From contig OZ024876.1 of assembly GCA_964017185.1 (NCBI GenBank), forward strand, positions 16,690,226 through 16,754,225: a stretch of 64,000 nucleotides of DNA. Reading direction: 5' to 3'. Below are positions 14,201 to 53,200 of the stretch, piece after piece; position 1 is the first letter of the stretch, and each line of letters opens with the position of its first letter. The DNA is from Rugalucina vietnamica (taxonomy: Eukaryota > Mollusca > Bivalvia > Lucinida > Lucinidae). The position numbers were made by a program, and so were the translations under genes. The notes under the pieces were generated by a model. That model saw only the letters and a program-made list of their open reading frames with translations. It did not search any database and was not told where the DNA came from.

Positions 14201-17200
14201 GATTATAATATACATATGGAAATTCAATTAATTGACTTTGCTCCAAAATCATACATCAAAAGCGTAACCAGGAATGTCAGATACACTCCTTGAGACCCGA
14301 GGTTATAAAACTTTTTTCATGCTCTACTCACCTGAGCTGTAAATTCAAACTGCTCATAAATACTAAAATATCGCAAAGTAATTGAAATTTTGGGTTTAGA
14401 TCACAAAAGCCTGTAATTTATCATGCTCATAAATGTTAAAATGCCAACAATGGTTGTCATTTTAACATTTATGAGCAAGATAAACTTTTTGTCCCAGCTG
14501 AGATGAGCATGAAAAAGGTTTTATAACCTCAGGGTCAGGGGCAATATGATGATCCTCTGAACAAAAGCTTATGGGTTGGGCTACAAGTTCTATCAACAAT
14601 GAGTTCTGGCTAACCCCTAGAACATAATCATACAGCTTACATACTTGCAAATGTAACGTATATACATGAAAAGGACAAATAAGGACCTATGATTCCATAT
14701 AATAGGAAAATATATCAGAATTAAAGATTCGCACATCTATCTTGAATTGGAGAGATAGAATACACGATAAGATAAAACACATGTACATGCATAAAGAATA
14801 AGATTTGCCTTGTACTTACATCATATTCCTCAATTTCGTTGTCAAGAAAGTCAAAGTTTTTAATCGTCATCATAACCATGTCTGTACCTGTACTGTCACT
14901 CAACAGATCTATAGCTAAAATAGATAACACATTGTGTGCTGTTACTCAACAGATCTATAGCTGAAATAGATAACACATTGTGTAGAGTCACTCAACAGAT
15001 CTATAGCTGAAATAGATAACACATTGTGTGCTGTCACTCAACAGATCTATAGCTGAAATAGATAACACATTGTGTACTGTCACTCAACAGATCTATAGGT
15101 GAAATAGATAACACATTGTGTGCTGTCACTCAACAGATCTATAGCTGAAATAGATAACACATTGTGTGCTGCCACTCAACAGATCTATAGCTGAAATAGA
15201 TAACACATTGTGTACTGTCACTCAACAGACCTATAGCTGAAATAGATAACACATTGTGTGCTGTCACTCAACAGATCTATAGCTGAAATAGATAACACAT
15301 TGTGTGCTGTCACTCAACAGATCTATAGCTGAAATAGATAACACATTGTGTACTGTCACTCAACGGATCTATAACACATTCTGTACTGTCGCTCAACAGC
15401 TCTATAGCTGAAATAGATAACACATTGTGTGCTGTCACTCAACAGATCTATTGTGTAGTGTCACTCAACAGATCTATAGCTGAAATAGATAACATGTGTG
15501 CTGTCACTCAACAGATCTATAGCTGAAATAGATAACACATTGTATGCTGTCACTCAACAGATCTATAGCTGAAATAGATAACACATTGTGTGCTGTCACT
15601 CAACAGATCTATAGGTGAAATAGATAACACATCGTGTACTGTCACTCAACAGATCTATAGCTGAAATAGATAACACATTGTGTACTGTCACTCAACAGAT
15701 GTATAGCTGAAATAGATAACACATTGTTTACTGTCACTCAACATATCTATAGCTGAAATAGATAACACTTTGTGTGCTCTTACTCAATAGATCTATAGCT
15801 GAAATAGATAACACATTGTGTGCTGTCACTCAACAGATCTATAACACATTGTGTGCTGTCACTCAATAGATCTATAGCTGAAATAGATAACAATTTGTGT
15901 ACTGTCACTCAACAGATCTATAGCTGAAATAGATAACACATTGTGTGCTGTCACTCAACAGATCTATAACACATTGTGTGCTGTCACTCAATAGATCTAT
16001 AGCTGAAATAGATAACAATTTGTGTACTGTCACTCAACAGATCTATAGCTGAAATAGATAAACACATTGTGTACTGTCACTCAACAGCAATATAGTTACA
16101 TGTAAAAATTGAAAAAAATACAAAAAAAACTGATACATGTGTTTCTTCATAATTACGAGTATGCTCAACACATTGTGGGTAAAATTGGTATACCCCTGTA
16201 TACCCCAGTTTTACTGTATTAATGTGGGGTACATTTGACGGACTTGTTGTTGTGATGTTTTATGTATATTACAAAGATACGGCTCATTTAGGACATTATA
16301 AAAACTTGCCCATGCAATATATAGAAATATGTTTTTAAAAGAAAAAATGAATTTTTTTTTTAATATTTCCGCTGAGGTGGTTCTAACAATTACCCACAAT
16401 GTATGTTTTGGATCAAAAATAAGTAAGTTAGGTATACCACTGCAAACCCCAGTTTTTCTATATAAAAGTGGAGTTTAAGGGGGTATACATTTCTTTACCA
16501 AATTGCCCCATGTGCTATAAATAGAATCTACATGTATGTCAGTGATCCGCCGCCCAATCACAGACAGATACTCAATAGCCATATCATGAGAAAAAAAGGC
16601 TTTTTGCATATAATATGCACAGGTGATCACTTCACAGATAGTAAATTTGTCTTCTTAAATCCAAAATTTCAAATCTCTAGCCTTCTTCTGTGACTGTACA
16701 GGCCAGTTTGTGTCGTAGCTGGTAGGAAACCCTGATGACCAGTTTTCTCATGACACAGCTCAACATTCCATAAACTTACAAGTATGGTTGACATCTGGTA
16801 GCGAGTCTTCCCCACTAGATATAACACTTTGCTGGTGGTCCAGAGTTGTATCACTTGACTGGCTAAAAATAACCTGAAAAACATTATGGTGAAGACTAAA
16901 AATGGTGCCAGGGAAAATGGTAAAAACTTGCTGTGTGATAAATATTCAGAGTGCGATAAATATTCAGGGTAAACACCTACAGAAAAGGATAATCTTATAA
17001 ATGGCTAGGACCCACTCACTTCAACTGTGAGGCATTAGAACTAAAAATGAGCCGCATCGTGAGAAAACCGGATTTTTGTCTAGGCGAAAACAAAGGCGCA
17101 GATCAGCTTCGCGGTAACCGCGAAGCTGATCAGCGCCTTTGTTTTCGCTACACGGATAGTACAATTTCTCTTCTTCTTAAATCCGAAATTTCAAGCTTCT

Positions 17201-26200: not shown

Positions 26201-29200
26201 CATATCCTTAATTGTCATCAAAACATGTGGCTTCTTTTTATGTAACACATTATTTTACCTGGCAATTCCTTTTTATGGCTGACATCAACGTCCGAAAATG
26301 AGATAATATTATGTCCTGAATATGCCGACTCTAAACTGCTGGATGATGAAGGTGGCGCTGCCGTCAATGTCGACGATCTTGCCACTGTCAACTTAAGAAT
26401 TTTGATAGCCTCCTTCCAATGGGAGCCCTGGACGTGTTTAGCCACTGTGTTGAAGAGTTCTTTGTTGAGAACGCTGGTCGGCGTGGTGTTCAGGTCGACA
26501 TAGTGTACCATACAGTGTAAGATCAGGAGAACAGCTTGTTGAAACGTGTTTGGACCTTTCTCCAACACCTACATGGAAAGTAAGGAGGAGAAAACATAAT
26601 TAAGGCCTAAAGGAAATACAAAGGTAAGTGTAAGTTTTATTTCAAAAGAAAGCAACAGTTCATACAAAATTTTGCCATTTTTTATGGAAATCAGTCTAGT
26701 TTTATATATATTGAAAAGGGGTGTACAGAGGCATAGTTTTTCTTATTTTTGCTCCAAAACATAGATTTTGGGCAGTATTCTTTAGAAATGCCTTGGCTAG
26801 GCGGTTCCAACATGAACCCACAATCTATGTTTTAAACACAAATAAGAACAATATGAAAATGTTTAAACGAAAAATTATTAATTTTTACAGCAGAAAAAAA
26901 AATATTGTAATGCACTAATGCTTACCTCAACAAGAAATGTGATCATTGATAGACTGGCCGAGGCGTAGACATCATGTAAATATTTCACCACACACTTCGT
27001 CCATTGAGAACTATCTTTACCAAAGGTCCCACGACTGTACAGTGACATCACAGTACCCAAATTGTCCAGGCGATCTGACTTCTGGGAGCATATCTGTGAA
27101 GTCAGTCAAATCAGGTTTTGATTTGGTCATTGCTTAACATCCCATTTCACTTTTTTATTCAGTCAGATGAGTAGAGCTATCCCTTCCTGTGTGTTAACCA
27201 GGTCTTGTGGCTATAAAACATTTTTCAAGCTCAACTCAGCTGAGCATGCAATTGCAACTACTCATAGATGTTGCAATAGTCAAAATTAATGGAAAATTCA
27301 GGTTCAAAACTCAAAAACTAGTCATTTATCTTGCTCATAAATGTTAAAATGCCAACAATTGTTGGCATTTTAACATTTATGAGCAGGATAAATTTTAGAC
27401 TTGGCTGAGTTGAGCATGAAAAAAGTTTTATAAGCTTGGGCCCAGTACTCTGGGAAACTTAAGAGACACAGTGTCTTTCTAAACAAACACTACACGGCAG
27501 AAGTAGAAACTGAACCATTTCTCTCTGTGGTCTGGTACTCTACCACTAGGCCACCACACTCTCATTTATGGACTGCACAGCTGATCTCCACCTTTTTTTT
27601 CGCACACACAAAAATGTGGCTTTCCCAAGACTTGTTGAAGCAGAGTTAGAGGAAGAATTGACATTAAAATAATCTGAAATGTGCAGGCCATGAGGATAGA
27701 TCTCTGGTACCCTTTATAGATCTCTTGTACCCTTTATAGATCTATGGTACCCTTTATAGATCTCTGGTATCCTTTATAGATCTCTGGTACCCTTTATAGA
27801 TCTCTGGTACCCTTTACAGATCTCTGGTACCCTTTATCGTAAGAACTACCATGCACCGTACACAGGTTCTATGTACCATACACAGGACTGGGGTGGGTAG
27901 GGGTCATAATTACCTGTGCAATATGATCTGCTGCATCTCTACACGACTGGGGTGGATTAAAATAGTGATACACCAAGTATGGTAAAATAGCCACTACATT
28001 CATTGGGAAACCTACAAATACAAAAATTAACCCATGTATGAGTATGTGGAATGGACTATCAGGAGTGATTTATTTTTCTTTTCTTTTTGTTGCTTTTTCA
28101 TGCTTGATGAGATTCCTCTAAGCAAACAGAATAGCCCCAGATAGGACACTCTGTTCAGCAGTGTGACATCTGGGGCTATAATGTTTGCCAACGTCCCATA
28201 AAATAGGACACCATGCTTAATTGAGTTAAATAGATGAATGATTTTAATAAATACATGAATTATATAGGCTGAAACAAAGGCTCAGATCCACTGCCTTGTT
28301 AGCATCTCAGCCCTCTTAACATATCCACTTTAATTACCAGAGGACCAATTGTACGTAAAAACGTAAAAATGAACAAAGTCAATGGACCATGAAATATAAG
28401 TCAAGGTCATCAGGTCAAAGTGCATGCTTGAAGGGTATGTCAAGGACAATCACTATGCAAGGTTTCACACTTGCAGCTATCACTGATGTAGAGAAAATCA
28501 AACTTTGACATAAAAATAAACAATGTCAATGGAGCCTGAAATATAGGTCAAGGTCAGCAGGTCAAGGTGCGTGCTTGAAGGGTATGTCAAGGACAATAAC
28601 TATGCAAGGTTTCACGCTCGCAGCTAACACCGATGTAAAGAAAATCAAACTTTGACGTAAAAATTAACAAAGTCAATGGACCATGAAATATAGGCCAAGG
28701 TCAGCGGGTCAAGGTGCGTGCTTGAGGGTATGTCAAAGACAATTACTATGCCAGGTTTCACACTCGCAGCTATCACTGATGCAGAGAAAATCAAACTTCG
28801 ACGTAAAAATGAACAAAGTCAATGGACCATGACATATAGGTCAAGGGCCATGGGTCAAGGTGCTTGCTTGAAGGGTATGTCAAGGACAATTATTATGCAA
28901 GGTTTCACACTCCTAGCTCTCACTTATGTAGAGAAAACCAAACTTCTACGTAAATGTTGACGGACGAACTGACGGACGGACAGACGGATGGAAATTTGGA
29001 CTCCTATATCGCACCCTGCTATAAGCAGGTGCGATAAAAATTCTTCTTTGAAGTTGTGGAAGGACGACAGACGACGACGACTACGGGTGCCTTCGGCTCA
29101 GGTGAGCTAATAATGCAAGTAAATCTCCAATATTTGCATAAATTTAAATATCCAGTATTAGTTTATCCTTAGAAAGAACAATGATTTAGTTTGAAATTTG

Positions 29201-32200
29201 GAAATTTCAAAAAGCCAGGACCCAGTTGTTCAAAGCATCGTTAACTTAACGATATCGTTAAGACATAAATTTGTTAAGCAAATATCAGCTAAAGTAACAA
29301 ATACACTGTTATTTTTTGTTGAAAAAATGTGAGAATCCTTTGCAGTGCAAAGGATTCTCACATTTTTTGAACAAAAAATAACAGTGTATTTGTAATATTA
29401 ATGTTTGAAATTTTAACGAAACGTTGACTAACGACGTCGTTAGTTTTGAACAACTGGGCCCAGGTCTCACAAAATATAGAATTTTTTGAATTTCGTAAAT
29501 GTAAAACTACCCAAATTCAGAGGGGCATTTTGCATGTCATGTATAATGAAGTACCTTATCAATACTTAAACTGTTATCCATCAAGGACAGGTCTGCATAT
29601 TTTTAGACAAAAATAGAATTTTCAGATTATTTTATGTCTTGAATTAAATGGATATATGGTAACTATGTGGCTGGTCAGAACTTTTGCATTACAAAAACAT
29701 GCCTGTTAAATACCTAGTGATTTTTAAAGTTGTACAAAATGGAAATTTTCATTACAAACATTTTGATATTTTTATGTTTTTGAACAAAATATAAATTGTG
29801 GGTACACATTAGAACTGCCTAACGAGTACCCACAATCTATGTTTTGCAACAAATAAGAAACAATGCATACCCTTGTAAACCCCAATTCAGTATACAATAC
29901 ATGGACATGTTTTCCTGATGGTTAGTATATTTTACTCATAGACTAACTCTTTCCTCTTGCTGGGTACCCATTATTTGTATCTCCTAAATAACAACTTTTT
30001 CATGTAAATACTAAAAAATCATTTGATTCACGTGTAAGAAAAACAACTGGTTATATCATTATGAAAATGTGTCCATACAATATACAGAGATTTTCAATGT
30101 TACAAACATTGAAAATTTTTCGTTGAAAAATTTCATTTTCTATATATTTGCTCAAAACATTGATTGTAGGTACACATTACAATCACCTAAGCGAGGTGAT
30201 TCTAACGAGTACCCACAATCAATATTTTGAATCAAAAGTAAGAAATATGGTAGACCTCTGTAAATCCAAGTTTCACTGCAAAACAGTGGGCCTTAAGGAG
30301 ATATACATTTCACGGACATGTTTTACTAATATGGTGGGGATCAAGTAAACAGCAGACATGTTAACTTTGTACCAAACAGTTAGAAAAGCCAAATTTTGAA
30401 GTAAAAGAATGATATTATGGTGAAATAACTGCAAATTGGCAGATATGAAGGGTTATACTAAAATCAAGCCTTCGCATAAGAAAACCAACCATTTGCATAT
30501 GTGAAAACAAAGACACAGATCAGCTGTGCAGTAGTAACTGCGCCTTTGCTTTTGCTACACGGATTTCTCGATCTAAAATCCAAAATTTCAAGCTTCTAGC
30601 CCTCTTCTATGCGGGCTGATTTGTGTCAGACCTGGTCGAAATCCCAAATTGTTGGTTTTCTCATGCACTGGCTCGAATTGTAATTTCTCTTCCACTTAGG
30701 AAAATCACAGCAAAATTTTATGTGCCTGAAAATTAAAGACTACAATCATATTATAAACATTACATATGTATACAATACATATGCCTACATGTAGTACGTG
30801 TATAGGGTGATTACTGAATGAATACTTACACTGGCTAGTAGTGGGGTCTATATAGGAAGATTCATGAGCTAACAACAGAAACCAGGTACGCATAAACCCC
30901 TTTATATCTTGAACACAGTTTGTATATATAGTTTGAATAATTTTTGGACCCCAAACCCTATTTTAAGGCTGATTTTGCTATACTGCTTTACATTTTACTC
31001 TCATTAAACACAAATTGGGTTGCTAACATGAAACTTGGCTTGGATCCCTAAAATAGTGTTATAAACAGATTGTAGAGTACCATCATCTTATTCAAACATT
31101 AGACCCTAAGATCTAACAATGGCTCTACTAAGATCAACTTCAATATCAATCTGCCACTTTGTCAGTTCAATCTCAACTTAAAGCTACTATTTCTATACAC
31201 ATATGACACCCCCTCCTCCCCCCCCCCCCCCACACCGACTTTCTCAGTGACAATGGCTAGGTGGTTACAAGCTAAAGATACGGCTCATTTAATACTTACC
31301 AAGACTACCAGCAGGGTCAATAACTGACGAGTTGATACAACAGCTGTTTCGCCTATGCAAAACCAAACATGCAGATCAACTGTGCAGTAACTGCACAGCT
31401 GATCAGCGTCTTTTGTTATCGCTTTACTGATAGTAAAATCCCTCTTCTCTGAAATTTCAAGCTTATAGCTTTCTTCTGTAAATGTACAGACCAGGTACCG
31501 AGGTTACAAAACTTTTTTCATACTCAGCTCAACTGAGACTAAAATTTATCTTGCTCTTAAATGTTAAAATGCCAACAATTGTTGCCATTTTAACATTAAT
31601 CAACAGGATAAATTACAGAATTTGGCATTATAAACCTTCAAATTCAACATATTTGGACTATTTTGGTATTTATGAGCAGTTTGAATTTTATGCTCAGCTG
31701 AGTTGAGCATGAAAAACATTTCATAACCTCGGGATCAGTTTGTGTCCGACCTGGTCAGGAACCCAGAAGACATGTCTCAGTACTCACCAAGACTGCCAGT
31801 AGGGTCAATAACAGATGAGTTGATACACACAGTCATTCTGGTCAGTAACTGCCACGTCGTTTCAGCGGTCATGTGGGAGGTACACCCCTGAAATGTCCAT
31901 CGAAATGTTTATACCATTATTGTTATAGTTTTATTTGTTTTATTGCTTTACATCCACAGTCAACAGCTAATCATTTAAAGAGAGTCGTTTCACTTTATTT
32001 CCTCGCCAATTAATTTTTTCTTTATGAAATTTTATGTTATTAGCGATGCAAATTAAACCATATACTAACTAGAATTTGTTTTCTATGTGAAAACTGATGT
32101 CTCCCCCCTTTCTACCTGCATGTCCAAAATATGCAAGCAAGAGTTATAGTTCCTGTGCATCACATATCCTGTCATTCTGTTTTATAATTGTACCAAGTTT

Positions 32201-35200
32201 AATTGAAATATCTCTTACGGTTTTCAAGTTATAGAGGGGGCATGAAAGTGTTTGGAAAATAATCAAAGGGAAATAACTCCAAAGATATGAAAGCAGGAGT
32301 AATGATTCTTGTGCATCATGCTTTGTAAGTGTACCATGTTTCACTGAAAAATCTCTAATGGTTTTTTAGTTATAGAGCAGACACGAAATTGAATGGAAAA
32401 TAATCAAAGGGAAATAACTCCAAAGATATGCAAGCAAGAGTTATGGTTCTTTAGCATGACACATCATCTCATCGTGCTTTATAAGTGTACCAAGTTTCAT
32501 TGAAATATTTCTTATGGTTTTGAAGTTATAGAGTGGACATGAAATTGTATGGAAAAATAATCAAAGGGAAATAACTCCAAAGATATGAAAGCAAGAGTTA
32601 TAATTCTTGTGCATGACACATCGTCTCATCACGCTTTATAAGTGTACCAAGTTTCACTGAAATTTCTCTTACAGTTTTCAAGTTACAGGGTGGACACGAA
32701 ATTGTATGGAAAATAATCAAAGGGAAATTACTCCAAAGATATGCAAGCAAGAGTTATGGTTCTTTAGCATGACACGTAATCTCATCGTGCTTTATAAGTG
32801 TAGCAAGTTTCATTGAAATATTTCTTATGGTTTTCAAGTTATAGAGTGGACATGAAATTGTATGGAAAAATAATCAAAGGGAAATAACTCCAAAGATATG
32901 AAAGCAAGAATTATAATTCTTGTGCATGACACATCTTCTCATCACGCTTTATAAGTGTACCAAGTTTCACTGAAATTTCTCTTACAGTTTTCAAGTTATA
33001 GGGTGGACACGAAATTGTATGGAAAATAATCAAAGGGAAATTACTCCAAAGATATGCAAGCAAGAGTTATGGTTCTTTAGCATGACACGTAATCTCATCG
33101 TGCTTTATAAGTGTACCAAGTTTCATTGAAATAACTCTTACGATTTTTGAGCTATAAAGCGGACACGAAATTGTATGGAAAATAATCAAAGGGAAATAAC
33201 TCACAAAATACTCAAGCCAGAGTTATGGTTCTTGTGCATGACACATCGACTGATCATGCTCAATAAGTGTACCAAGTTTTATTGAAAAATCTTAAACGGT
33301 TTTCAAGTTATACAGCGGACACGAAATTGTATCGAAAATAATCAAAGGGAAATAACTCCAAAAATACTCTCAAGCCAGAGTTATGGTTCTTGTGCATGAC
33401 ACATTGTCTCGTCGTGGTCTACAAGTGTACCAAGTTTCATTGAAAAATCTTTAACGGTTTTCAAGTTATACAGCGGACACGAAATTGAATCGAAAATAAT
33501 CAAAGGGAAATAACTCCAAAAATACTCAAGCTAGAGTTATGGTTCTTGTGCATGACACATCGTCTCGTCGTGGTTTACAAGTGTACCAAGTTTCATTGAA
33601 AAATCTTTAACGGTTTTCAAGTTATAGAGCGGACACGATTTGTGACGGACAGACGGACGGACGGACAGACGGACGGACGCACGGGGAAAAACAATATGTC
33701 TCCCGACCCTGTCGTGGGGAGACATAACTATTGCACAAGAAAGAAGAGTTTTAATACGTCTGTAGCAGACCAATATTGAACATACATCTGGGTTATTCCC
33801 TATCAACCGTTTGCAATTTCCCTTATCAAATGACATTCGCCAATCTGTACTTTGCCATATTGTTTTTGTCACCAAGCAATGGAATAAAACCATAAATACC
33901 CTGTAAAGGTTGATTATCAATGATCCTACAGATGGATATTGAAAAAATATATAGTCACCATAAGATTATACCATGAAAAGTTTATGTATTCTGTGAACAA
34001 TACAGCAAAATAACTTGCCCGCCAAAACGCATGCGCTGTCACCGACGTCCATAATTTGACGTACCAGTTGGAATTTGACAAGACGTATGTACGGTGTGAT
34101 TATGCACTAGTAACCATGGCTACCCCAATCATAGGGAATAGCTTAGAAATTGATTTTTATCAAGCAAACCTCTGCACTGGGGGACACACATTTTGCAAAA
34201 CGCCTGCTAATTTACCTGGCGGTCTGCTATGTTTGTAGCTGTTTTTACAAATATAATGCAAACCACAGGTAGTTCCCTAGCACTGGGGCGCACATATCCC
34301 CGTTCAATGCCATGACTATCCACCGCCCTCCCCGGGGACGGGCCCATCGCTACAAATGACTAGTGCATTATCATCATTAAAAATTTAATACTGCCTTCAT
34401 ATTGTTTTCTGTGCATAGTTTTCTAACATCTCCTTACTTTCAGTAGTAGAGTCTGTACCCCGGGAAAGTTAGTCCACTTGATCTGCTGGAGTATTTTGTC
34501 CAGTTTATCTCGGCATTCCGGTCTTTCAGGCTGAAGGTGACACAGTATCTGAAACACATTCATCATGAAAACATGCATTTATGAGCCGCAATGCGAGAAA
34601 ACCGGTCTTCCGGAGTTCCGACCAGCTCCAACATAACCGGCCTGTATAGTCACAGAAAAAGGCTAGAAGCTTGAAATTTCGGATTTAAGAAGAAGAGGGA
34701 TAGTACTTTTTTTTTTTTTTTTTTTTTTTTTGATTCAGTTTTACGTCCCTTTCAAGCTTTTTCACTCATATCGAGACGAATCAATCGGTAGGTGGGGCGA
34801 AAACCGGAGTACCCGGGGAAAAACCACCTGACACACCCGCAAGCAGAACATGGCTTGTCTCACATATGAATTCGTGCCCCGTGCGAGGCGCGAACCCACA
34901 TCGGTGAGATGATCGAATGATCAAGAGCACTGAAGTCAGCGACCTTAACCACTCGGCCAGGGGGTCCGCCGCGAGGGATAGTACTATCCGTGTAGCGAAG
35001 ATCAAGATGCCGATCAGCTTCGCAGTTACTGCAAAGCTGATCTGCGCCTTTGTTTTCTCAAAAATTCAGTTTTCTCACGATGCGGCTCATATGATACACA
35101 AAAATTTTTATAATTGCTAAAAATGAAAACTTTTGTTGTCAAAATTTTGATTTTTTTTTTTTCTTATTTTTGCTTCGGAACATAGATTGTAGTACATGTT

Positions 35201-35279: not shown

Positions 35280-38200
35280 AATCTGTGTGCAATTTATTTG
35301 GATTTACCCCGTTACAAACACTCTTCTGGACCCGGGTTTTCCAGAAGTGTTACATAAAAAGATTCTTTCTCTCTCTCTTTTTCTCATCTGACATACATGT
35401 GCACTATTCTTCCTCACTCCTTGTATACAATAAATCTTTTAAATACATAGAATTTTGTAGCAATATTAGTGCACCTTTTATACTACCTTTCAACCGATAA
35501 CATTTATAAATATAATAATCTTTTTTTCTTTTTTTTTTTGTCAATCAAACACATGTATTAAGTACAAAATTTTATCTTGACATGTAAGCTGCAGGTTAAC
35601 AAGAGTTCCCAAGAGGTTGAACTGAAAAAAAAAAGCAGAAAATAAACATCTCAAAAATGAGTGTCCAAAGTCTCAGGAACGTCTCAGTAATCTGTCCCAC
35701 ACAATATTATAAAGTTTGTTCAACAGATTCTTTTAGAAAAACCTGGCAATAGGTGGGGATGGGGATTGGGGTGGGGGGGGGGGTCTGCCCAGTATGTTAT
35801 TTAAATATTTTTCTGTTACAGTAGATTGGCTCAAATAAAAACAATAAAGATAAGTATGCCATTTAATTTTAATGCTGAGTTGAAGGAAATTTGTGTTAGA
35901 CAATTATATCATCTAATAGCTGTTTATATGGGCTCCAATCTTTCGCAAAGGTTTCTAAAGTGTTATTTGAAAAAGCTATTTCCATATGCGTTTTGTACAT
36001 GAATTTAAGTTTTTTCTTATATACTGACAATATCAGTGGTTGGCTGTTACATCTTGAACAGTAAATGTAGTATTTGGCATATAAGAGGATAAAATGTAAT
36101 ATATTTGTCATCTTCTGATATTTATCAATACCAAATAAAAACAGATGTTCTGAGAGATGAATGTAAATATTGTAATTTTGGAGCCACAATTTAATTGAAT
36201 TCAAAAACTCTTGTGTTTTATTACAGTTCCAAAGTAAATGGGCAGTTGATTCTTCCTCCAGAGAACAAAAAGTACAACTTGAATCTTCTATTATTTTCAT
36301 GTGTTTCAGAAGTTTGTTTGTAGATAGAATGTTATGATTTATTCTTATCTGAAACCAACGTAGTTGGGAGTATTGTGTTATTTTAAATGGATATTTATAA
36401 ATATTTTGCCACTCTTTTTCCTCAAAGTTATATATTTTATTCCATGTTTGTTTTGCTGTAGGAATTTCGTCATTGTGGTTTAAAATATTATACATGACCC
36501 TTGCACCTTGCTTTCTTTTAATTATAGGAGCAATGTGACTAGGCATAAATGGAGTTTGGCTTCTATGTGTTAGAGTTGTGTCAACATTTTTTAAGTATGT
36601 GTTTATTGCTCCCGTTATTCCCCAAAATTGAAGGTAGTTTGTTTGTATTCTAAATATTTCTGAAAATTCTTCTTGGTCTAAAAATGCTCCATTTTCTTTT
36701 ATTAAATCATTTATAAATCTTACGCCCTTTCTAAACCAAGTGTCATAATATATATCTTTACCATCTATTTTGATATTTTTGTTATGGAATATTGGGGTTT
36801 GTAATATCAAGTCCTCATCAATTTTAGAAACACTTGTCTCACTCAATTTTATTAAGCCTTTTAGAACATCTATCCAAAATTCATTTTTCATATTATAGAG
36901 TTTCTTCTTAATGTATTGTGTATTACAACCTACTAATTTCTCAATTTCAATATCTAGTTTAATGAAATCTTGCCATTTCCTGTCTGCATTTAGCAGCCTC
37001 CTTATCCATGTCAGTTTTAATGCCTCAATAAATGCTTTTAGATTTACCATTTTTAGACCGCCTTCTTCATACTGTTTTATAACAACACTCTTTTTAATTA
37101 GGGCTTTGCTTCCCCACAAAAAGTTATAAAGGATATTATTAATGTTATTAATTACAAATTCTTCTGGAGTTGGCAGTGTAAAGAATAAATGATTTAATAT
37201 TGGTATCATTAAAACTTTTATCAAAGTTATTTTTCCTAATGGTGTTAATGTTCTTCTTTCCCACTGTCTACACATATTCTCAAGGGCTTGAATCTTAGGC
37301 TTATAATTATCCTTTATCATTTTAGACAAGTCTGTATTGAAGTTAATGCCCAAAAGTTTAAAAGTTTGTTTTCCCCATATGAGTTTCCATTTTGTTTTAA
37401 TAGAAGTTTGATCAAATTTTTTTGAGCCAATCCATACTAGTTGTGTCTTGTCAAAATTTACTTTAAGGCCTGATATTAACGCAAAGTATTCTAATTCCTT
37501 TAACAATTCTTCCAATGATTTTTCTGAGCCATCAAGAAATATAGATGTGTCGTCTGCATATTGTGATATTTTATGTTCTGATGTTCCCACTTTTATACCT
37601 TTAATATTTTTGTTTTTTTCTTATCTTATTTGCTAAAAATTCTGCACATATTATGAAGATATAAGAGGATCTCCTTGGCGGCATCCGCGGCTTATTTGGA
37701 AAAAGGATGATAAGTAACCATTTTGTATGAGTACCCACAATCTATGTTCTGAAGCAAAAATATGAAAAATGTATACCCTGTACATACCCATTTTACAATA
37801 TAAAAGTGCGGTGTAAGGGGTATGCATTACACTGACATGTTATCCTGATGACAAACATCCTGGCTATCATAATCATGATCAAATTATCTCGGCACTCCAG
37901 TCTCTCTGAGGTTGCAGACCTTGGCTATTAGGAAATAACACACTTTATTACACTATCTATTTATTTTTTTTTTCTTTCTGTGTTTTGTTAGGGCCAATAA
38001 TATGATGAATATCCAGTTGTCATGTGGTAGTCAGACTCTCCTTATCCAGTAGTCTTGTGGCCAACAGGACCTCATACTCGTAGTCCGACTCACCTTTTCC
38101 AGTAGTCGCGTGGCCAACAGGAACTCAAACTCCAACTCACCTTATCCAGTAGTCATGTGTTCAACAGGAACTCACACTCATAGTCCGACTCACCTTATCC

Positions 38201-41200
38201 ACTAGTCCCGTGGCCAACAGGAACTCAAACTCCGACTCACCTTATCCAGTAGTCATGTGTTCAACAGGAACTCACACTCGTAGTCCGACTCACCTTATCC
38301 AGTAGTCGCATGGCCAACAGGAACTTATACTTGTAGTCCTACTCACCTATCCAGTAGTCGCATGGCCAACAGGAACTCATACTCATAGTCTGACTCACCT
38401 TATCCAGTAGTCGTGTGGCCAACAGGAACTCATATTCGTAGTCCGACTCCAGCAGAGACACAGCAATCCAGAACATCTGCGACAAGATGGTCAACTTATC
38501 CTCAGTCCCCTGTTCTGAGTTTTTCAGGGATTTCTCACTCCGTGATCGTGGCATGTTGGTTCTCCCCCTGCTGTCCAGCTCTGTGCCACTGCGGATCCTC
38601 ACCTCCATAGCTGGGGCAAAACATAAAGTCCATTATACACCTGTCATTTGTCGACATGCCCACACCCCAAAAGCTATGGGCATAGCGAGGTTATTCAGTT
38701 TTTAGATTCCTATAAGCCCCACCCCCACAAGGAAACCTTTAGGTCTTAACTCTGCTTTTTGCCCCCCCCCCCCCCCTCCCCCTTCCACAACAGAAAGTTT
38801 CATTAAACTCTTCATTACCCTGCACTGTGGGGCAATCACAAAGTAATTGCCCCATACTAGTAGATGGAGATGTGGGCTATGGTTACATATGAGCCGTGTC
38901 ACATACAAGAAAACAGGTCTTTGGGGTCTCCAACCAGGTCTGACACAAACTGGCCTGTACAGTCAAACAAGATGGCTAGAAGCTTAAAATTTCAGATATG
39001 AAAAGAAGAGGAGATTACTCTCTGTGTATCTAAAACAAAGATGCTGAACTGCATCTTTGTTTTCACATATGCAAAAATCCATTTTTCTCACAATGCAGCT
39101 CACATGAATCGTATATTAGTTCATCCATGCTAAAGATAAGAAACCTATTTTTGTTGGCTTTTAAAGAGATAGTCACTTTGTGTAGGTTTGCTCTAACAAA
39201 AGGCCAAAAATATTTCAATAAACCACCTCACTGACTTAAAATCAGTTTCTCGATCCCTTACAAATGGCTAATCTAATCCAGCTGAGTTGAGCATGAAAAT
39301 ATTTTCATAACCTCGTGGCCAGTGGACATTAGTGCTGTGGGGAGACTAATACATATGAGCAGCAACGAGTGAAAAACAGTCTTCGGGGTTTTCGACCAGG
39401 TCTGACATAAATCAACCTGTACAGTCACAGAAACAGGCTAGAAGTTTGAAATTTCGGGTTTAAGAAGGAGAGAAATTGTACTATCCGTGTAGCGAAATCA
39501 TAGGCACTGATCAGCTTCACAGTTACTGGGAAGCTGATCTGGGCCTTTGTTTTTGCATAGGCAAAAATCTGGTTTTCTCACGATGCGGCTCATATTGCTC
39601 AAGGACAAAATTTAGTGAGATAGGATTCTAACCCAGGATCTCTTGATTCAGGGTGTGTCACACTAGCCACTACGCCATCTCGCTCCCAAAACATTGATCT
39701 AATACATTCACTCACAGTTTTAACTCACCAGGGTTAACTTTCGCAGTGACACTCTGTATGGAGTAGCTTGTGCTCCTGGCATGCTGGGGAGGACTAGACT
39801 GCTGCTTGGGTGCCATCAGTACGCTACGCCGCGCCTCCGCGCCACTGAGATCCTTTGCCAGGTTTGGAGTAGACATGAAGATATCTCTCATAAAGTCTAT
39901 AGGTCGGACCTCCATGTCAAGGTTTTCAACCAAAGCCTCTAGGGTGAGGATTATTTCTGTCACGTAGCCCTGCAGAAAGTTAACTAAAGCATGAATAGGA
40001 AGGCTTAAAAAGCATGCATAGGAAGGCTTAAAAAGCATGAATAGGAAAGCTTAAAAAGCATGAATAGGAAGGCTTAAAAAGAGCAACACGCATGAGCCGC
40101 CGCATGGGAAAACCAACAATCTGTATATGCGAAAACAAAGATGCAGATCAGCTGTGCAGTAACTGCACAGCTGATCAGCATCTTTGTTTTCGCTACACAG
40201 ATAGTACAATCCTCTTCTTTTTAAAGTGGAAATTTCAAGCTTCTAGTTAATTTCTGTGACTGCACAGACCAGTTTCTGTCTGATATGACCTGGTTGGAAA
40301 CCAAGATAGTTGGTTTTCTCACACTAAGGCTCATTATGTTTAGAATCGCCCCGGATGGGATAGCTTGTTTGTCTCTGTCCCATAAATAGAACATCAGGAT
40401 TCTTTCAGTAACATGTTCAAATACCCAAACAACCTTGTTAAATAGTAAATGTCAATGTTCTAGCTTGTTCCTGTATGTGCACAGGTCGGTTTGTGTCAGA
40501 GCTGGTCAAATCCCCAAAGACCTCTTTTCTGGCATCACAGCTTATTTATTTTGATTATACACCCTAATAGTTGACACCATCATGTGGGTAAATGTCAAAC
40601 TGTGGGTAAATGTCAAACTGTGGGTACATGTCAATGCTCTGTGGGTAAATGACGTACCTGCATATCTTCTCCCTGCTCGGCAACAGTTTCCACAAGTCGT
40701 GAGAGAATATCAGACAGCATCTGGGATGTCGGGCGAACATGTAAGGCCCTCAAGACCTACAAATAACATACAAACTGGCCTGTGCTGATCTCTGAGTGGG
40801 TATTATATTATCATTTTTAAGAGAATCGACCAATGAAAGTCTATGCATGGACACTATTGACCCCCGGGGCATGGCCAAATTTGACCCAGGGGCATGACTG
40901 GCACAATTTATAATGGGGACTACCAAACATTGCTACATACAAAATATAGAAGCTCTGGGCCTTTTGGTTTCAGAGAAGAAGATTTTTGTTAGTTTTTCCC
41001 ATTGTAGGTCTATGGAGACTATCGACCCCCGGGGCGTGGCCAAATTTGACCCCAGGGGCATGATTGGCACAATTTATGTAGAGGACCATTAGCCATTACC
41101 ACCTACAAAATATCAAAGCTGTGGGCCCTGTGGTTTCAGAGAAGAAGATTTTTTATTTTTTTTTCCCATAGTAAGTCTATGGAGACTATCAACCCCCGGG

Positions 41201-44200
41201 GCGTGGCCAAATTTGACCCCAGGGGCATGAATGGCACAATTTATGTAGAGGACCATTAGCCATTGCTACATACCAAATATCAAAGCTGTGGGCCTAGTGG
41301 TTTCAGAGAAGAAGATTTTTTTAGTTTTTCCAATTTTAAGTCAATGGAGACTATCGACCCCCGGGGCGTGGCTAAATTTGACCCCAGGGGCATGGCTGGC
41401 ACAATTTATGTAGAGGACCATTAGCCATTGCCACATACAAAATATCAAAGCTGTGGGCCCTGTGGTTTCAGAGAAGAAGATTTTTTAATTTTTTTCCCAT
41501 AGTAAGTCTATGGAGACTATCGACCCCCGGGGCGTGGCCAAATTTGACCCCAGGGGCATGAATGGCACAAATTATGTAGAGGACCATTAGCCATTGCTAC
41601 ATACCAAACATCAAAGCTGTGGGCCTAGTGGTTTCAGAGAAGAAGATTTTTTAATTTTTTTCCCATAGTAAGTCTATGGAGACTATCAACCCCCGGGGCG
41701 TAGCCAAATTTGACCCCGGGGACATGATTGGCACAATTTATGTAGAGGACCATTAGCCATTGCCACATACAAAATATCAAAGCTGTGGGCCCTGTGGTTT
41801 CAGAGAAGAAGATTTTTTAATTTTTTTCCCATAGTAAGTCTATTGAGACTATCAACCCCCAGGGCGTGGCCAAATTTGACCCCAGGGGCATGAATGGCAC
41901 AATTTATGTAGAGGACCATTAGCCATTAATTTATGTAGAGGACCATTAGCCATTGCTACATACCAAATATCAAAGCTGTTGGCCTAGTGGTTTCAGAGAA
42001 GAAGATTTTTTTAGTTTTTTTCCTATTGTAGGTCTATGGAGACTATCGACCCCCGGGGCGTGGCCAAATTTGACCCCAGGGGCATGATTGGCACAATTTA
42101 TGTAGAGGACCATTAGCCATTACCACCTACAAAATACCAAAGCTGTGGGCCCTGTGATTTCAGAGAAGAAGATTTTTTAATTTTTTTCCCATAGTAAGTC
42201 TATGGAGACTATCAACCCCCGGGGCGTGGCCAAATTTGACCCCAGGGGCATGAATGGCATAATTTATGTAGAGGACCATTAGCCATTGCTACATACCAAA
42301 TATCAAAGCTGTGGGCCTAGTGGTTTCAGAGAAGAAGATTTTTTTAGTTTTTCCAATTGTAAGTCAATGGGGACTATCGACCCCCGGGGCGTGGCCAATT
42401 TGACCCCAGGGGCATGGCTGGCACAATTTATGTAGAGGACCATTAGCCATTGCCACATACAAAATATCAAAGCTGTGGGCCCTGCGGTTTCAGAGAAGAA
42501 GATTTTTGAATTTTTTTCCCATAGTAAGTCTATGGAGACTATCGACCCCCGGGGCGTGGCCAAATTTGACCCCAGGGGCATGAATGGCACAATTTATGTA
42601 GAGGACCATTAGCCATTGCTACATACCAAATATCAAAGCTGTGGGCCTAGTGGTTTCAGAGAAGAAGATTTTTTTAGTTTTTCCCATTGTATGTCTATGG
42701 GACCTATCTGTTGCCATGGAAACCACAATTTTGATACAATCTGCTCCAAAACCTAATGCCATCAATCCCCCAACCCAATTATGGTTCACATTAAATTTGA
42801 TCAAGATCGGCCTACTAGCTTTAGAAATATTCTTCTTTGAAATTGTGGACGGACGACGACGACGACGGACGACGACGACGACGGATGCCTGCCTATCCTA
42901 TAAGCTCACCTGTGAGCCTTCGGCTCAGGTGAGCTAACAAGAGAACCAATGGTCTAGTAGCTCACCTGAGAGATTTGCTCATCGTAAGCTTAAAGGTCCC
43001 AAGCCCCCAAGCCCTGCCTGTATGAACCACAGGGGCATGATTGACAGGATTTATAGAGGATTTCTATGCATTGCTACACAAACTAGAGGACCATTGGTCC
43101 TGTAGCTCACCTGAGAGATTATCACATTGTAAGCTCATGAGATTTAAACTAATTGAGAATCGACCAATGAAAGTCTATGCATGGACACTATTGACCCCCG
43201 GGGCATGGCCAAATTTGACCCAGGGGCATGACTGGCACAATTTATAATGGGGACTACCAAAAATTGCTACATACAAAATATAGAAGCTCTGGGCCTTTTG
43301 GTTTCAGAGAAGAAGATTTTTGTTAGTTTTTCCCATTGTAAGTCTATGGAGACTATCTACCCCCGGGGCGTGGCCAAATTTGACCCCAGGGGCATGGCTG
43401 GCACAATTTATGTAGAGGACTATTAGCCATTGCCACATACAAAATATCAAAGCTGTGTGCCCTGTGGTTTCAGAGAAGAAGATTTTTTATTTTTTTCCCA
43501 TAGCAAGTCTATTGAGACTATCAACCTCCGGGGCCTGGCCAAATTTGACCCCAGGGGCATGAATGGAACAATTTATGTAGAGGACCATTAGCTATTGCTA
43601 CATACCAAATATCAAAGCTGTGGGCCTAGTGGTTTCAGAGAAGAAGATTTTTTTAATTTTTTTCCCATAGTAAGTCTATGGAGACTATCAACCCCCGGGG
43701 TGTGGCCAAATATGACCCCAGGGGCATGAATGGCACAATTTTTGTAGAGGACCATTAGCAATTGCTACATACCAAATATCAAAGCTGTGGGCCTAGTGGT
43801 TTCAGAGAAGAAGATTTTTTTAGTTTTTCCTATTGTAAGTCTATGGAGACTATCGACCCCCGGGGCATGGCCAGATTTGACCCCAGGGGCATGGCTGGCA
43901 CAATTTATGTAGAGGACCATTAGCCATTGCCACATACCAAATATCAAAGCTGTGGGCCCTGTGGTTTCAGAGAAGAAGATTTTTTATTTTTTTTCCCATA
44001 GTAAGTCTATGGAGACTATCGACCTCCCGGGGCCTGGCCAAATTTGACCCCAGGGGCATGAATGGCACAATTTATGTAGAGGACCATTAGCCATTGCTAC
44101 ATACCAAATATCAAAGCTGTGGGCCTAGTGGTTTCAGAGAAGAAGATTTTTTTAGTTTTTCCCATTGTAAGTCTATGGGACCTATCTGTTGCCATGGAAA

Positions 44201-47200: not shown

Positions 47201-50200
47201 ATATTAATCTAAATCAGTACTTACTTGCCCTACACCAGGAGGTGTTTCAAACCATGGACCTCTCAATCCAAAGTCTGACATTCTAGCTCTCCACTACATA
47301 ATAACTGATCCTAAAGGTAAGTCTTTCACAATACTGGGGAGTGTTGGGTGATTCACAAAAGCTTGTCTTAAAAGAAATCTTGAATTATAACCAGCCCAAC
47401 TGGTTTATTAAATCAATGAGTCATTTTTCTGTATAATCGCATGATGGCAGGGTATACCTGTTTCATTGGGACTTGTGTCCTTGACCTCAGAAATCATCTC
47501 CAAGGTGTCATCAAGGTTAGTCTGGTAACTTAGCAACAGTCTGGCAGCTTCTGGGTGATCCTGATTGGCCGCTAACAGCATCAGGTTCTCTAGAAGCTTC
47601 TTACAATGCTCATAAACCATTTCCTTGTTGTGGTCTAAGCCTATAAATTAATTATCAAAAGTAATATGAGCCGCGACGCGAGAAAACCGGTCTTCGGGGT
47701 TTCCGACCAGGTCCGACACAAACCGGCATGTACAGTCTCAAAAGGAGGCTAGAGGCTTGAAATTTTGGCTATAAGTAGAAGAGGAATTGTACTATCCGAG
47801 TAGCGAAAACAAAGGCGCTGATCAGCTTCGCGGTTACCGCGAAGCTGATCTGCGCCTTTGTTTTCGCCTAGGCAAAAATCCGGTTTTCTCACGATGCGGC
47901 TCATATGTGTGAAATCAAACAATTTTATATTTTATGCATACTTGTGCTGCAGTGCAACAAACGTTTATCCAAGACTAAGCATCCAAGTTTGTTAAATACA
48001 GATGATTATTCAAAATTTAAGCAAAAGCTGACGTTACCAGTGTTTAACATGTGTATGCCCTTGTATGTAATGAGCCGCGACGCAAGAAAACCGGTCTTCG
48101 GGGTTTCCGACCAGGTCTGACACAAACTGACCTGTACAGTCACAGAAGCGGGCTAGAAGCTTGAAATTTCGGATATAAGAAGAAGAGGGAATATACTCTC
48201 CGTGTAGCGAAAACAAAGGCGCTGATCAGCTTCGCGGTCACCGCGAAGCTGATCTGCGCCTTTGTTTTCGCATAGGCAAAAATCCGGTTTTCTCACGATG
48301 CGGCTCTAATCATGTATGTTTTTCATTACTCACAAGCCCAACTGCATATGGCCAATGAGTTGATTTTTTGTTCACCAAAATACTTACAAACACTTTTCTT
48401 GAATCAGCAGAATAGCCTTAGAAATATTTTTAAAATGTGCAAGGTGTGAGGATCAATTGCGGGCTCAGAGATAAAGTTCATAACATGTCAAGCAGAGTTT
48501 TTTTCTGTTCCCTAAACTATTAAGTCCAATCAAACTCTTTGGACATGGTATCAGCATAAACAAGTCACTAAAAGCAATATCTACAACTATGAGATAACAT
48601 ACCCAGAAAAATGACCTGTAACTTGTTGGCAGAAGGGCAGACCAATCAACTATGAGATAACATACCCAGAAAGATAACGTGTATCATGGTTGGCAGATAT
48701 GCAGACCAATCAACTATGAGATAACATACCCAGAAAGATAACGTGTATCATGGTTGGCAGATATGCAGAACAATCAACTATGAGATAACATACCCAGAAA
48801 GATAACGTGTATCATGGTTGGCAGATATGCAGAACAATCAACTATGAGATTACATACCCAGAAAGATAACGTGTAACATGGTTGGCAGATAGGCAGACCA
48901 ATCAACTATGAGATAACATACCCAGGAAGATGACTTGTAACATGGTTGGCTGACGGGCAGACCAATCAACTATGAGATAACATACCCAGGAAGATGACTT
49001 GTAACGTGGTTGCCAGATGGGCAGACAAATCAACTATGAGATAACATACCTAGAAAGATGACATGTAACATGGTTGGCAAATGGGCAGACCAATCAATCT
49101 CAAGACCATCTAACACCAGGTCGGATATAAACATGATGGAAATATTGCACCTGAAAAGGAATACATATGAGCCTTTGCATGAGAAAACCAACAATCTGGG
49201 TTTTCGACCAGGTCTGACATAAACCGTACTGTGCAGCTACAGAAGATGGCTAGAAGCTTGAAATATTAGATTTAGGAAGAAGAAGAATTGTACTGTACTT
49301 TTCGCTATCTGTATTAAACATTATGGCTTACGGTTGCTGGGATGTAAATAAAGAAATGAGCCGCCTCGTCAGGGGCGGATCCAGGATTTCTGAAGAGGGG
49401 GTTCAAATGTAGAAAAGGGGGGTTCGTTTGCTGAATTTCGCACAAAATCTTTTGAAATTCCCCATGAAAACGAAATAATGTGGGTCCAGAGGGGGGTTCA
49501 AACAAACCCCTTTAACCCCCTCTAAATTTGCCACTGCTCGTGGGAAAACCAACGTGGTTTCCGAACAGGTCCAACACAAACCGACCTGTACAGTCATAGA
49601 AAAGAGCTAGAAGCTTGAAATTTCGGATTTAAGTAGAAGAGGAATTGTACTATCCGAGTAGCGAAAACAAAGGCGCTGATCAGCTTCGCGGTTACCGCGA
49701 AGCTGATCTGCGTCTTTGTTTTCGCCTATGCAGGTTGTTGGTTTTCCCGTGAGGCGGCTCAAATAAAGAAATCTGTTAAAAATCTGCATAAAAAATACCT
49801 GTGAAAACCAGCAGAAGGCAGCAGGTTCTCTGGTAAGAATTCCAGTAATGGTGCAAAATATCCACCATATGCTGGCATTGGTAGGGGGTAGGGCATCTTG
49901 GTCTCCACTCTGTGAGGGTCGGTTGTACGCCTAGCAGGAGATGTTAAGGGCATCTCATCCTCTGAAACGATAGGAAAATTATCTAAGCTGCAACGCGAGA
50001 AAAACTGTCTTCAGGTGTACGATCAGGTCTGATAAAAATTAGCCTGTATCACACAGAAGGAAGACTAAAGAACTTTTGAATTTAAGAAGAAAAGGGGTTG
50101 TTCTTTCTGTGAAGTGATAACAGAAGGTGCAGACTGGTTGTGCAGTTACTGCACAGCTGATATGCGCCTTTGTTTTTGCTGCACAGCTGGTCTCCATCTT

Positions 50201-53200
50201 TGTTTTTGCAGCATAAGCAAAAAGCCAGTCTTCTCATGATGTGGCTCACCTAATGATATAAACAAAAGACACTGAGTTATTTGTCCCCTAGAATGAGTTT
50301 AAGATCAAGATTAATAAGTATATGATGACCCCATTGATTTAATGCTTTTCTGTCCACTGTCAACAGCTCATGTCATATTGGGAGGTTCAGTTATAGTAGC
50401 AAATGGGCTGCGATGCGAGAAAACCTGTCTTCAGCATTTCCAACCAGGTACGAAGCAAACTGGCCTGTGCAACTACAGAGGATGGCTAGAAGCTTGAAAT
50501 TTGTAGATTTTGGAAGAAAAGGAATTGGACTATCCGAGTAGAGAAAACATAGGAGCTAATCAGCTGTGCAGTTACTGCACAGCTGATCTACATGTACGCC
50601 TTTGTTTTGGCATAAGCAAAACTCCAGTTTTCTCTTGACGTGGCTCAAATGGTCTTGGACTTGAAACAGCAGAAAAGGAATAATGGCCATAGAAATATAT
50701 TCAAAACTAGAAAAAGTGCCTTGAGAGGCACGCATACCCCCGGCTGGTAGCACCCGCCCCCCGAAGCCCCCCCCCCCCCTAGCCCCAACATGCCCACATA
50801 AGTGGGGAGGGGGGTTGTAGTAGAATGACATCTATTTTAGAGCAGTATACAGAGCTGGCGTGTATACTCAATCTAGGACTTGATCGCGGACATTGAGGGT
50901 CAGGTCCTCGGTCCTAGAGGGAAAACAGAATGTCATTCTTTAATTATAATAATAAAAAAAATCAATAAATATAAAACATGTCCTAGATATTGACCTCTAC
51001 TACCACCCTGGTTATGGCCCCCTAATGTCATTAGATACATAGCAAAGCTTATTGAGTACCTATATGGTCTAAGTACGAATGATTTCGTACTTTCGGTTGT
51101 GAAGAAAAGTACAGAAAATACAATTTTTATAGAAGTTCTAGATTTTGACCTCTAGCCCCACCCCCCTCATATGGACCCTAGAGTCTGAACCTAACCTGAT
51201 GCCTATGGTCGAAGTATAAAAGCTTTCTGACAAGACTTTGTGGATGTCAAGATATAGACTTACAGAAAATTTCTCATGGTATCTATCATATTATAAAGGT
51301 GTCCTAGATGTTGAACTCTAGCCCCACGCCAGGGGATGGTACCCAGAATTCGGTGCCATGAAATGAAAGCAAACCCTACAGGTTATCTATGATGTAAATA
51401 GGAATACATTCCTTTGATTATTTATTAAGATATGGACTTAGAAATGAAACATTAACATTATAAACAGCACATTTTAAAGATGACCTAGATATTGACCTCT
51501 AGCCCCACCCCCGGGCATGGACCCTGGGGTCCGAACTAATGGAAACAAAGCAAACCCTATAGGGTACCTATGGTCCAAATATGAATGGTTTCTGATGGTT
51601 GGTTCATGAGATATACACTATTAGAGAAACTTTAACCAAAACTTTGACATAAATTCCACGAACGTTCCGGAATTACGAACGAACTAACGAACGAATACAC
51701 GAACGAATGAACGAACACACGAACGTACGAACGGAAAACACGGGGACCCAACTGTTAATCGTGATTATTGATGCGACGTGGAATGTTAATGCATGCCATT
51801 ATGAAGTTTTGTATGCGTCGGCGAGTTCGTTACGAATGCGACGTTCCACATCCTCTATCCTTGGACGGTAAGTACCACATGTTTTGCTCTCGTGAAAATA
51901 AACAAAGCCGAGTTTACAAAATCAGCGTCCACTATGATCTGCAAAATTCTTCTATGTTCCCACCTGAAATCAACTGGAATACTTACGGCACTTGTGTTTT
52001 TCAGCTAATGGTTTATAAAGTTGACAGGTAGATACAAGATTGCCACGAATACACATTACATTCTTAAAGTCCATTTGTTTTTCTAATTCTTGGTCGTAAA
52101 CTAAGAAGTATAACACAGTCCTAATGGTGTCTTTATTGAAATATGTATCAAAATGGCTTTGTAAATGCACATTTATTTACTGAGCGTGAAAAACAGTAAG
52201 ATAAGTACCTTTTGTATGCATCGAAGATGAAGGTACGTCCTACTAGAATGAGTCATGGAAGAATTAGCATTTTGTTGTGCTCTTACAAAAGTTATTTACG
52301 TCAATGCAGAAGCATAACTTGCGCTTATTGCATGGTGTATTTTTTCCTTGTACTACATGTACTTCGTTGAGCGAGCTTCAAAGAATGTGCCACTTTTATT
52401 TTGAATGAGGTCACAGAGTGGTTTTCTGATATAGCTTTGTCAACATTCGAGTGACTTCTTGCCTCGAAACAGCAAATCATTTTCGGGCATATCAGTGACA
52501 AATGTAATATGTTTTCTAACATTAAATGACCGCTAAACCAAATATTATTTGATCATTTAATATCGGTGGCTCGATGCTCCTCTTTTTGATAAGCGGAGGT
52601 TGGGGGGGGGGGGCGGGGAACAAAATAATTAAAGGGATTTGTGCGGTTTTTAGGTGCGGTTGTCAGTCAGTTTTCCATTGGGAATGGTGTGTTGTACAAG
52701 AACAGCGATCAACTATGGTTATTTTATTGCAATTAGAAGAGTCTTTCGGGAGCCCCTTGAACTCTCCGCCTCAGGCTAAAACAACTTTCTCCAGCCTCTG
52801 CAAATGTTAATACAGTATAAAAACATGGTTGACCCCTTTAACATGTATCTAGAAAATATTAATTGAAGAAAATGCATCACTGTCTACATATCGTAACATT
52901 TGCTATTTTATTTTACTGATTCATCGGTCTCAATCTTCAACGACGCATTTCTGTGTCGCATATAAAATTTTAACAAAATCTATGATGCATACGAAAGATG
53001 CTTATCTTTCTGTTTTTCACGCTCAGTAAATAAGTGTGCATTTACAAAGCCATTTTGATACATATTTCAATAAAGACACCGCAAGACTGTGTTGTACTTC
53101 TTAGAATACGGTCAAGAATGATAAAAAACAAAAGGAATTTAAGAATGTAATGAGTTTTCGTGGCAATCTTGTATCTACCTGTCAACTTTATAAACCATTA

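Follow-up and report, generated by a model that had tools for sequence, protein, structure and literature searches.

Tandem arrays of splice junctions in a predicted FRY gene of the bivalve Rugalucina vietnamica

When a splice acceptor and the first codons of its exon stand copied many times over in the preceding intron, which of the copies is used, and how did such an array arise? The question is raised by a minisatellite in a 64,000-nucleotide stretch of the Rugalucina vietnamica genome (contig OZ024876.1), hereafter called the window, which an earlier note had described as 25 copies of the acceptor of FRY exon E24. The gene that carries the arrays described below lies on the minus strand and is identified as FRY (Furry) from its exon matches to the profiles PF14228 and PF14225. 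When the exons of the window were strung together, both profiles were matched over their cut-offs (E values of 1.2e-14 and 2.3e-9, respectively), and Fry_C (PF19421) reached 21.9 bits, below its cut-off of 25.9. Exons adjoining particular arrays were also scored. The exon at 108.7 kb matched PF14222 with 50.6 bits and that at 38 kb matched PF14225 with 30.7 bits, both over cut-off; the exon at 48.6 kb, taken together with the next exon, matched PF14228 with 24.8 bits, below the cut-off of 27. The exon at 72.8 kb matched no profile, and we take it to belong to FRY from its position, its strand and its likeness. A search of the PDB with a piece of FRY found nothing.

Tandem Repeats Finder reported the E24 array under overlapping rows that together span 14889..16087 (minus strand), and its units were cut at the anchor CTGTTGAGTGACAG with up to three mismatches allowed. 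This revealed 27 head-to-tail units ahead of the real exon copy, in place of the 25 counted before. Most are 46 bp long (21 units), and the others measure 47 bp (one), 43 bp (one), 33 bp (three) and 26 bp (one). Read on the minus strand, the unit is CAATGTGTTATCTATTTCAG, the intron end, followed by CTATAGATCTGTTGAGTGACAG[T/C]ACA, the exon start, each full unit comprising ~20 nt from the end of the FRY intron and ~26 nt from the start of the exon that follows. A 16-mer from the exon start occurs 16 times in the window including the exon's own copy, always within 14889-16090, and a search of the window's plus strand found none. The Tandem Repeats Finder rows, the unit cutting and the clustering of the 16-mer bear out the earlier note in its main points, that a splice-acceptor minisatellite is real and that its unit derives from the E24 acceptor, and an array of such length is beyond what base composition would yield by chance. 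The motif TTT[C/T]AG is kept in 21 of the 27 units, 20 of them decoys reading TTTCAG and one the presumed true site reading TTTTAG; two other units read CAC at this place, and four short units lack the site. Past the far end of the array we noticed by eye a decayed remnant of a further unit (16164..16177, minus strand; CTCAACACATTGTG on the plus strand).

The exons on either side of the array are E23 (16780..16873, minus strand, 94 nt) and E24 (14820..14914, minus strand, 95 nt, phase 1 at its start and followed by the donor gtaagt), whose joined peptide gave the Fry_C match below cut-off. They join in frame at TTTTAG/CTATAG across an intron of 1.87 kb that contains all 27 units, and the array does, as had been proposed, lie upstream of the true acceptor in the transcript. 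A second in-frame AG stands 6 nt downstream of the presumed acceptor (CTATAG/ATC), so that the exact start of E24 is one of two positions. Splice-site strength was scored with a position matrix made from 18 acceptors and 14 donors of FRY chosen by eye, each list having lost one string (of 19 and 15, respectively) that was not found. The presumed true acceptor AG, which is the exon-proximal one (14915..14916, minus strand), scored 7.1, the lowest of the 21, versus 7.8-10.2 for the decoys (20/20 higher). The suspicion that the true site is the weaker one was thereby upheld. Native FRY acceptors span scores of 5.3 to 16.2 by the same matrix, and all 20 decoys fall within that range. A reading-frame check showed that every one of the 20 decoys leads to a stop 10-32 codons in. 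The expectation that an upstream acceptor would shift the frame held only in part: since seven of the 20 decoys add a multiple of three bases, the harm of using them does not lie mainly in the frame, and it is the stops, common to all 20, that would do most damage. The last unit alone carries GTAAC (14941..14945, minus strand), a putative branch site whose candidate branch A, at 14942, is 27 nt from the end of the AG; the corresponding position in the 20 decoys reads GTGAC in 18, GTAAG in one and GTGGC in one. GTAAC may be a better branch site, although the change is of one base, in one unit among the 21 that bear an acceptor, and could be chance.

Scanning the window together with 200 kb of flanks (264 kb in all) revealed that FRY carries five junction arrays, two at acceptors and three at donors, of which three lie inside the window. 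Each of the other four is built from its own exon's sequence. The first donor array (38027..38449, minus strand) has about 8 units of ~53 bp with the exon end ...LLATRLLDK followed by gtgagt, and its founding exon, the one matching PF14225, lies at 38399..38608 (minus strand, start approximate) with the donor GT at 38398. The second (48584..49097, minus strand) has 8 units of 64 bp with the exon end ...TMLHVIFL followed by gtatgt, and its founding exon, with the PF14228 match, lies at 49050..49149 (minus strand, start approximate) with the donor GT at 49049. Outside the window, in extended coordinates, are the third donor array (72845-74962) and the second acceptor array (108713-109295), which has a 45-bp unit. 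We also noticed by eye a two-copy donor duplication near 109300-109450 in the same coordinates.

The consequences of using a decoy were read in these arrays as well. Presumed decoy donors would lead to a stop within the stretch read in 7/7 cases at 48.6 kb and in 6/7 at 38 kb, where the first decoy causes a frameshift and meets no stop in that stretch. The array at 72.8 kb gave a stop at 20/20 pattern-matched sites, some of its units falling outside the pattern. In the acceptor array at 108.7 kb, five of the 11 decoys give a stop; at the other six the 45-bp unit length keeps the frame open, so that 15-residue repeats would be added. Early stops from all decoys are thus ruled out as a general rule by this array and by the first decoy at 38 kb.

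Several other repeats fell outside the class of junction arrays. The array at 27696-27837 lies about 76 bp past a donor, and that at 39986-40081 stops 16 bp short of an acceptor AG group; the latter is a pyrimidine-rich array of four 23-bp copies, placed where the branch site and pyrimidine run of a FRY exon would lie. Those at 40583-40634 and 51679-51733, and at 68771-69211 and 84659-85938 in extended coordinates, are not on junctions. Apart from these, repeat units of about 166 and 156 bp make up large arrays at 40847-44186 and 32126-33638, which may be parts of mobile elements since GAC/GACG-type simple repeats adjoin them. A near-perfect long inverted repeat (GCGAAAACAAAGGCGC...) was seen by eye at 17084-17148, with a similar one near 40130-40190, and a 574-codon open frame with a YADD motif (35899-37620, minus strand), inside a FRY intron, looks like the reverse transcriptase of a non-LTR element.

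Taken together, we consider it probable that the E24 array is a mirage, as comparable arrays in amphioxus are called: a tandemly duplicated splice junction that grew by repeat turnover and is mostly a tolerated passenger, with the exon-proximal site being used. A short segment across the border of FRY intron, acceptor and exon would have been duplicated in tandem, founding the minisatellite, which slippage or unequal exchange would then have enlarged and homogenised. Turnover of this kind is indicated by sets of identical units, there being 19 distinct units among the 27, and by a duplicated 125-bp block of 46+46+33 bp (units 2-4 equal units 5-7). The last two units differ from the consensus at two positions each, and some inner units equal or exceed that. 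Choice of the exon-proximal acceptor, which we presume from the reading frame alone, would leave FRY intact, and because all 20 decoys lead to early stops, whatever product results from their use should be eliminated, assuming nonsense-mediated decay.

As to what would direct that choice, local strength is ruled out as a general rule, since decoys match or outscore the presumed true site in three FRY arrays (20/20, 19/20 and 5/6); in the other two it outscores every decoy (0/11 and 0/7 decoys reach its score), so that strength may help there. The likeliest rule would be exon definition, by which the acceptor that lies closest to the downstream donor is preferred when introns are long. The exon-proximal acceptor would be favoured because only there do a full 95-nt exon and its donor follow directly, each decoy being followed by 26 nt of exon. 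GTAAC in the last unit, if it is the better branch site, would perhaps aid the proximal choice. The donor arrays would fit the same preference, as the first donor transcribed is the frame-keeping one. For human genes, PMC9225289 reports that where long introns flank alternative sites, pairing is with whichever site is closest across the exon. The same account gives an overall preference for upstream acceptors that is significantly reduced, not plainly reversed, when strengths are nearly equal and introns long. Since the preference is reduced rather than reversed, exon definition may be too weak to overcome 20 stronger sites upstream, and the choice of the E24 acceptor is a real puzzle.

If the decoys were in fact used in some transcripts, the array would act as a regulatory VNTR whose length, through stop-bearing mRNAs, tunes FRY output. 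The decoys' scores, above the true site and within the native range, would suit such a role, as would the stops that all 20 produce, in the manner of poison-exon control, and the open frames at six of the 11 decoys at 108.7 kb. Conservation within the units can be read both ways. Across the 21 full-length 46-bp units, eleven columns of the acceptor tract before the decoy AG are unchanged, which favours regulation, but the AG itself bears no clear sign of being kept, its G being changed in 2/21 units versus a mean of 0.5 changes per column (T/C site excluded). The intron part of these units shows 9 changes from the consensus and the exon part 23, nine of the latter at the one T/C site, counts that are hard to weigh because the units share descent. 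Against regulation, too, PMC3087553 states that amphioxus Adh3 data and globin RT-PCR suggest no interference of mirages with regular splicing. We consider regulation by array length unlikely, and keep to the reading of a tolerated, turned-over junction duplication.

Junction duplications were also sought in other genes. A search of the genome for myosin listed 91 matches. From the 34 best-ranked of these, 20 were cut out with 600-bp flanks, several of the resulting loci sharing one gene; the remaining 14 comprised nine within stretches examined before, two that overlapped stretches included here and three omitted for no particular reason. Four of the 20 loci had duplications across a junction, of 1.8-2.8 copies, at acceptors in L035 and L046 and at donors in L043 and L051. 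In L029-L032, four longer stretches with 24 of the myosin exon matches, no junction array reached three copies. A repeat in L029 (5702-5768, 26 bp, 2.6 copies) was rejected, as it adjoins a myosin acceptor without spanning it. In L032 (3078-5096), three adjoining exons match one part of the profile (about 119-153), like mutually exclusive exons. Compared with solved structures, a myosin exon came nearest to squid and scallop chains, ahead of vertebrate and insect ones, in keeping with a mollusc. For kinesin, five places were chosen among 133 matches for repeated matching of one profile part, which makes the sample not random, and four of the five had junction duplications: at donors in L053 (18 copies up to the end of the stretch) and L055 (four, likewise up to the end), and at acceptors in L056 (six copies) and L054 (two, by eye). 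The fifth, L057, is not a tandem array; it has two separate exon copies about 450 bp apart, perhaps alternative exons. The further arrays in FRY, myosin and kinesin genes rule out the E24 array as an isolated oddity.

Three less probable explanations were also considered. The repeats could have been selected as reserve splice sites that buffer junctions against mutation, and most units of several arrays do contain good-looking sites. However, most extra FRY sites tested lead to stops and so look like a cost, not a reserve, and the second copy in myosin locus L051 carries stop codons and changes; selection for spare sites seems to us quite improbable. That the unit came from elsewhere, as a satellite or mobile element that met the exon border secondarily, is suggested by the many other tandem arrays in the window and is still harder to credit: an exact-match search of the 1.09-Gb assembly for a 25-mer of the unit found 13 matches, all inside the E24 array, which speaks against a dispersed satellite, the exon portion of the unit codes in frame for FRY residues, and other junction arrays use their own exons' sequences. 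Equally implausible is an assembly artefact, for although tandem arrays are prone to error in assembly, the diversity of the units, the 63.7-Mb contig, a window without N and similar arrays on other contigs all speak against it. The lengths of thirteen contigs, ranging from 102 Mb (C1) down to 35 Mb (C17), point to about 17 chromosomes.

We then asked how often tandem repeats fall on junctions, using a null model that places units at random relative to junctions and ignores differing loss or gain of repeats inside exons or mobile elements. In the window, three of seven arrays lie on junctions (P 9e-4, 60 junctions assumed). In the 264-kb region it is five of 21 rows, with P of 1.6e-5 for 122 junctions, which we take as twice the human exon number, and 1.7e-4 for 200. 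Rows counted there had periods of 18-130 and at least 2.5 copies, the best-scoring of overlapping rows being kept; double-length periods were halved, two rows stood for the single 72.8-kb array, and the count excluded four rows with periods of 15-16 together with all units of greater length. Among the 20 myosin loci, four of eight arrays (period of at least 20, at least 1.8 copies) were on junctions (P 1.8e-3), and adding the four longer stretches made this four of 17 (P 0.069). Enrichment of tandem repeats at junctions is thus supported in FRY and unsettled genome-wide. It is conceivable, and we put it forward tentatively as somewhat short of an even prospect, that in this mollusc lineage junctions are preferred sites of tandem duplication throughout the genome, that many ordinary genes carry their own acceptor or donor arrays, that splicing relies on an exon-proximal rule over local strength, and that the arrays provide a naturally occurring library of competing splice sites as well as raw material for new exons.

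It has long been asked how the spliceosome passes by strong decoys close at hand, and constructs are the usual means of study. In this genome, conserved genes hold natural arrays, varied in length and frame, in which near-identical acceptors and donors compete. The FRY arrays suggest that mirages are also found in a second phylum, and this is relevant to the way introns and exons move and originate. The arrays resemble intron gain by tandem duplication, as cited in PMC3087553, in that the duplication carries splice sites. They differ in lying within existing introns, with no new intron or exon seen. Besides the amphioxus mirages, the literature also cites splice donors arranged as a minisatellite within an interferon-induced transcript. 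This is reportedly the human IFI6 (6-16) minisatellite of a 1995 paper, with multiple splice donors, in which a 12-bp unit is said to be itself the donor and to be used in alternative splicing. In both systems a single kind of splice site is present in many copies; the FRY unit, unlike that of IFI6, also carries conserved codons, and the FRY decoys are candidate sites only. In the open-licence full-text literature we recognised no mirage-type arrays outside cephalochordates, and an earlier report may exist elsewhere. The closest match in anatomy is with the mirages of amphioxus, described for Adh3, the globins BflGb6 and BflGb9, PGBD5 and TnC in PMC3087553 and PMC3902484. As there, the repeat unit spans an exon-intron border, at E24 and at four other FRY junctions, and many but not all units keep the AG or GT (21/27 at E24). 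The FRY case differs in occurring in a mollusc, with five arrays in one gene, in the 27 units of the E24 array compared with six and three in two amphioxus BflGb6 haplotypes, and in that most or all decoys in three FRY arrays equal or exceed the presumed true site.
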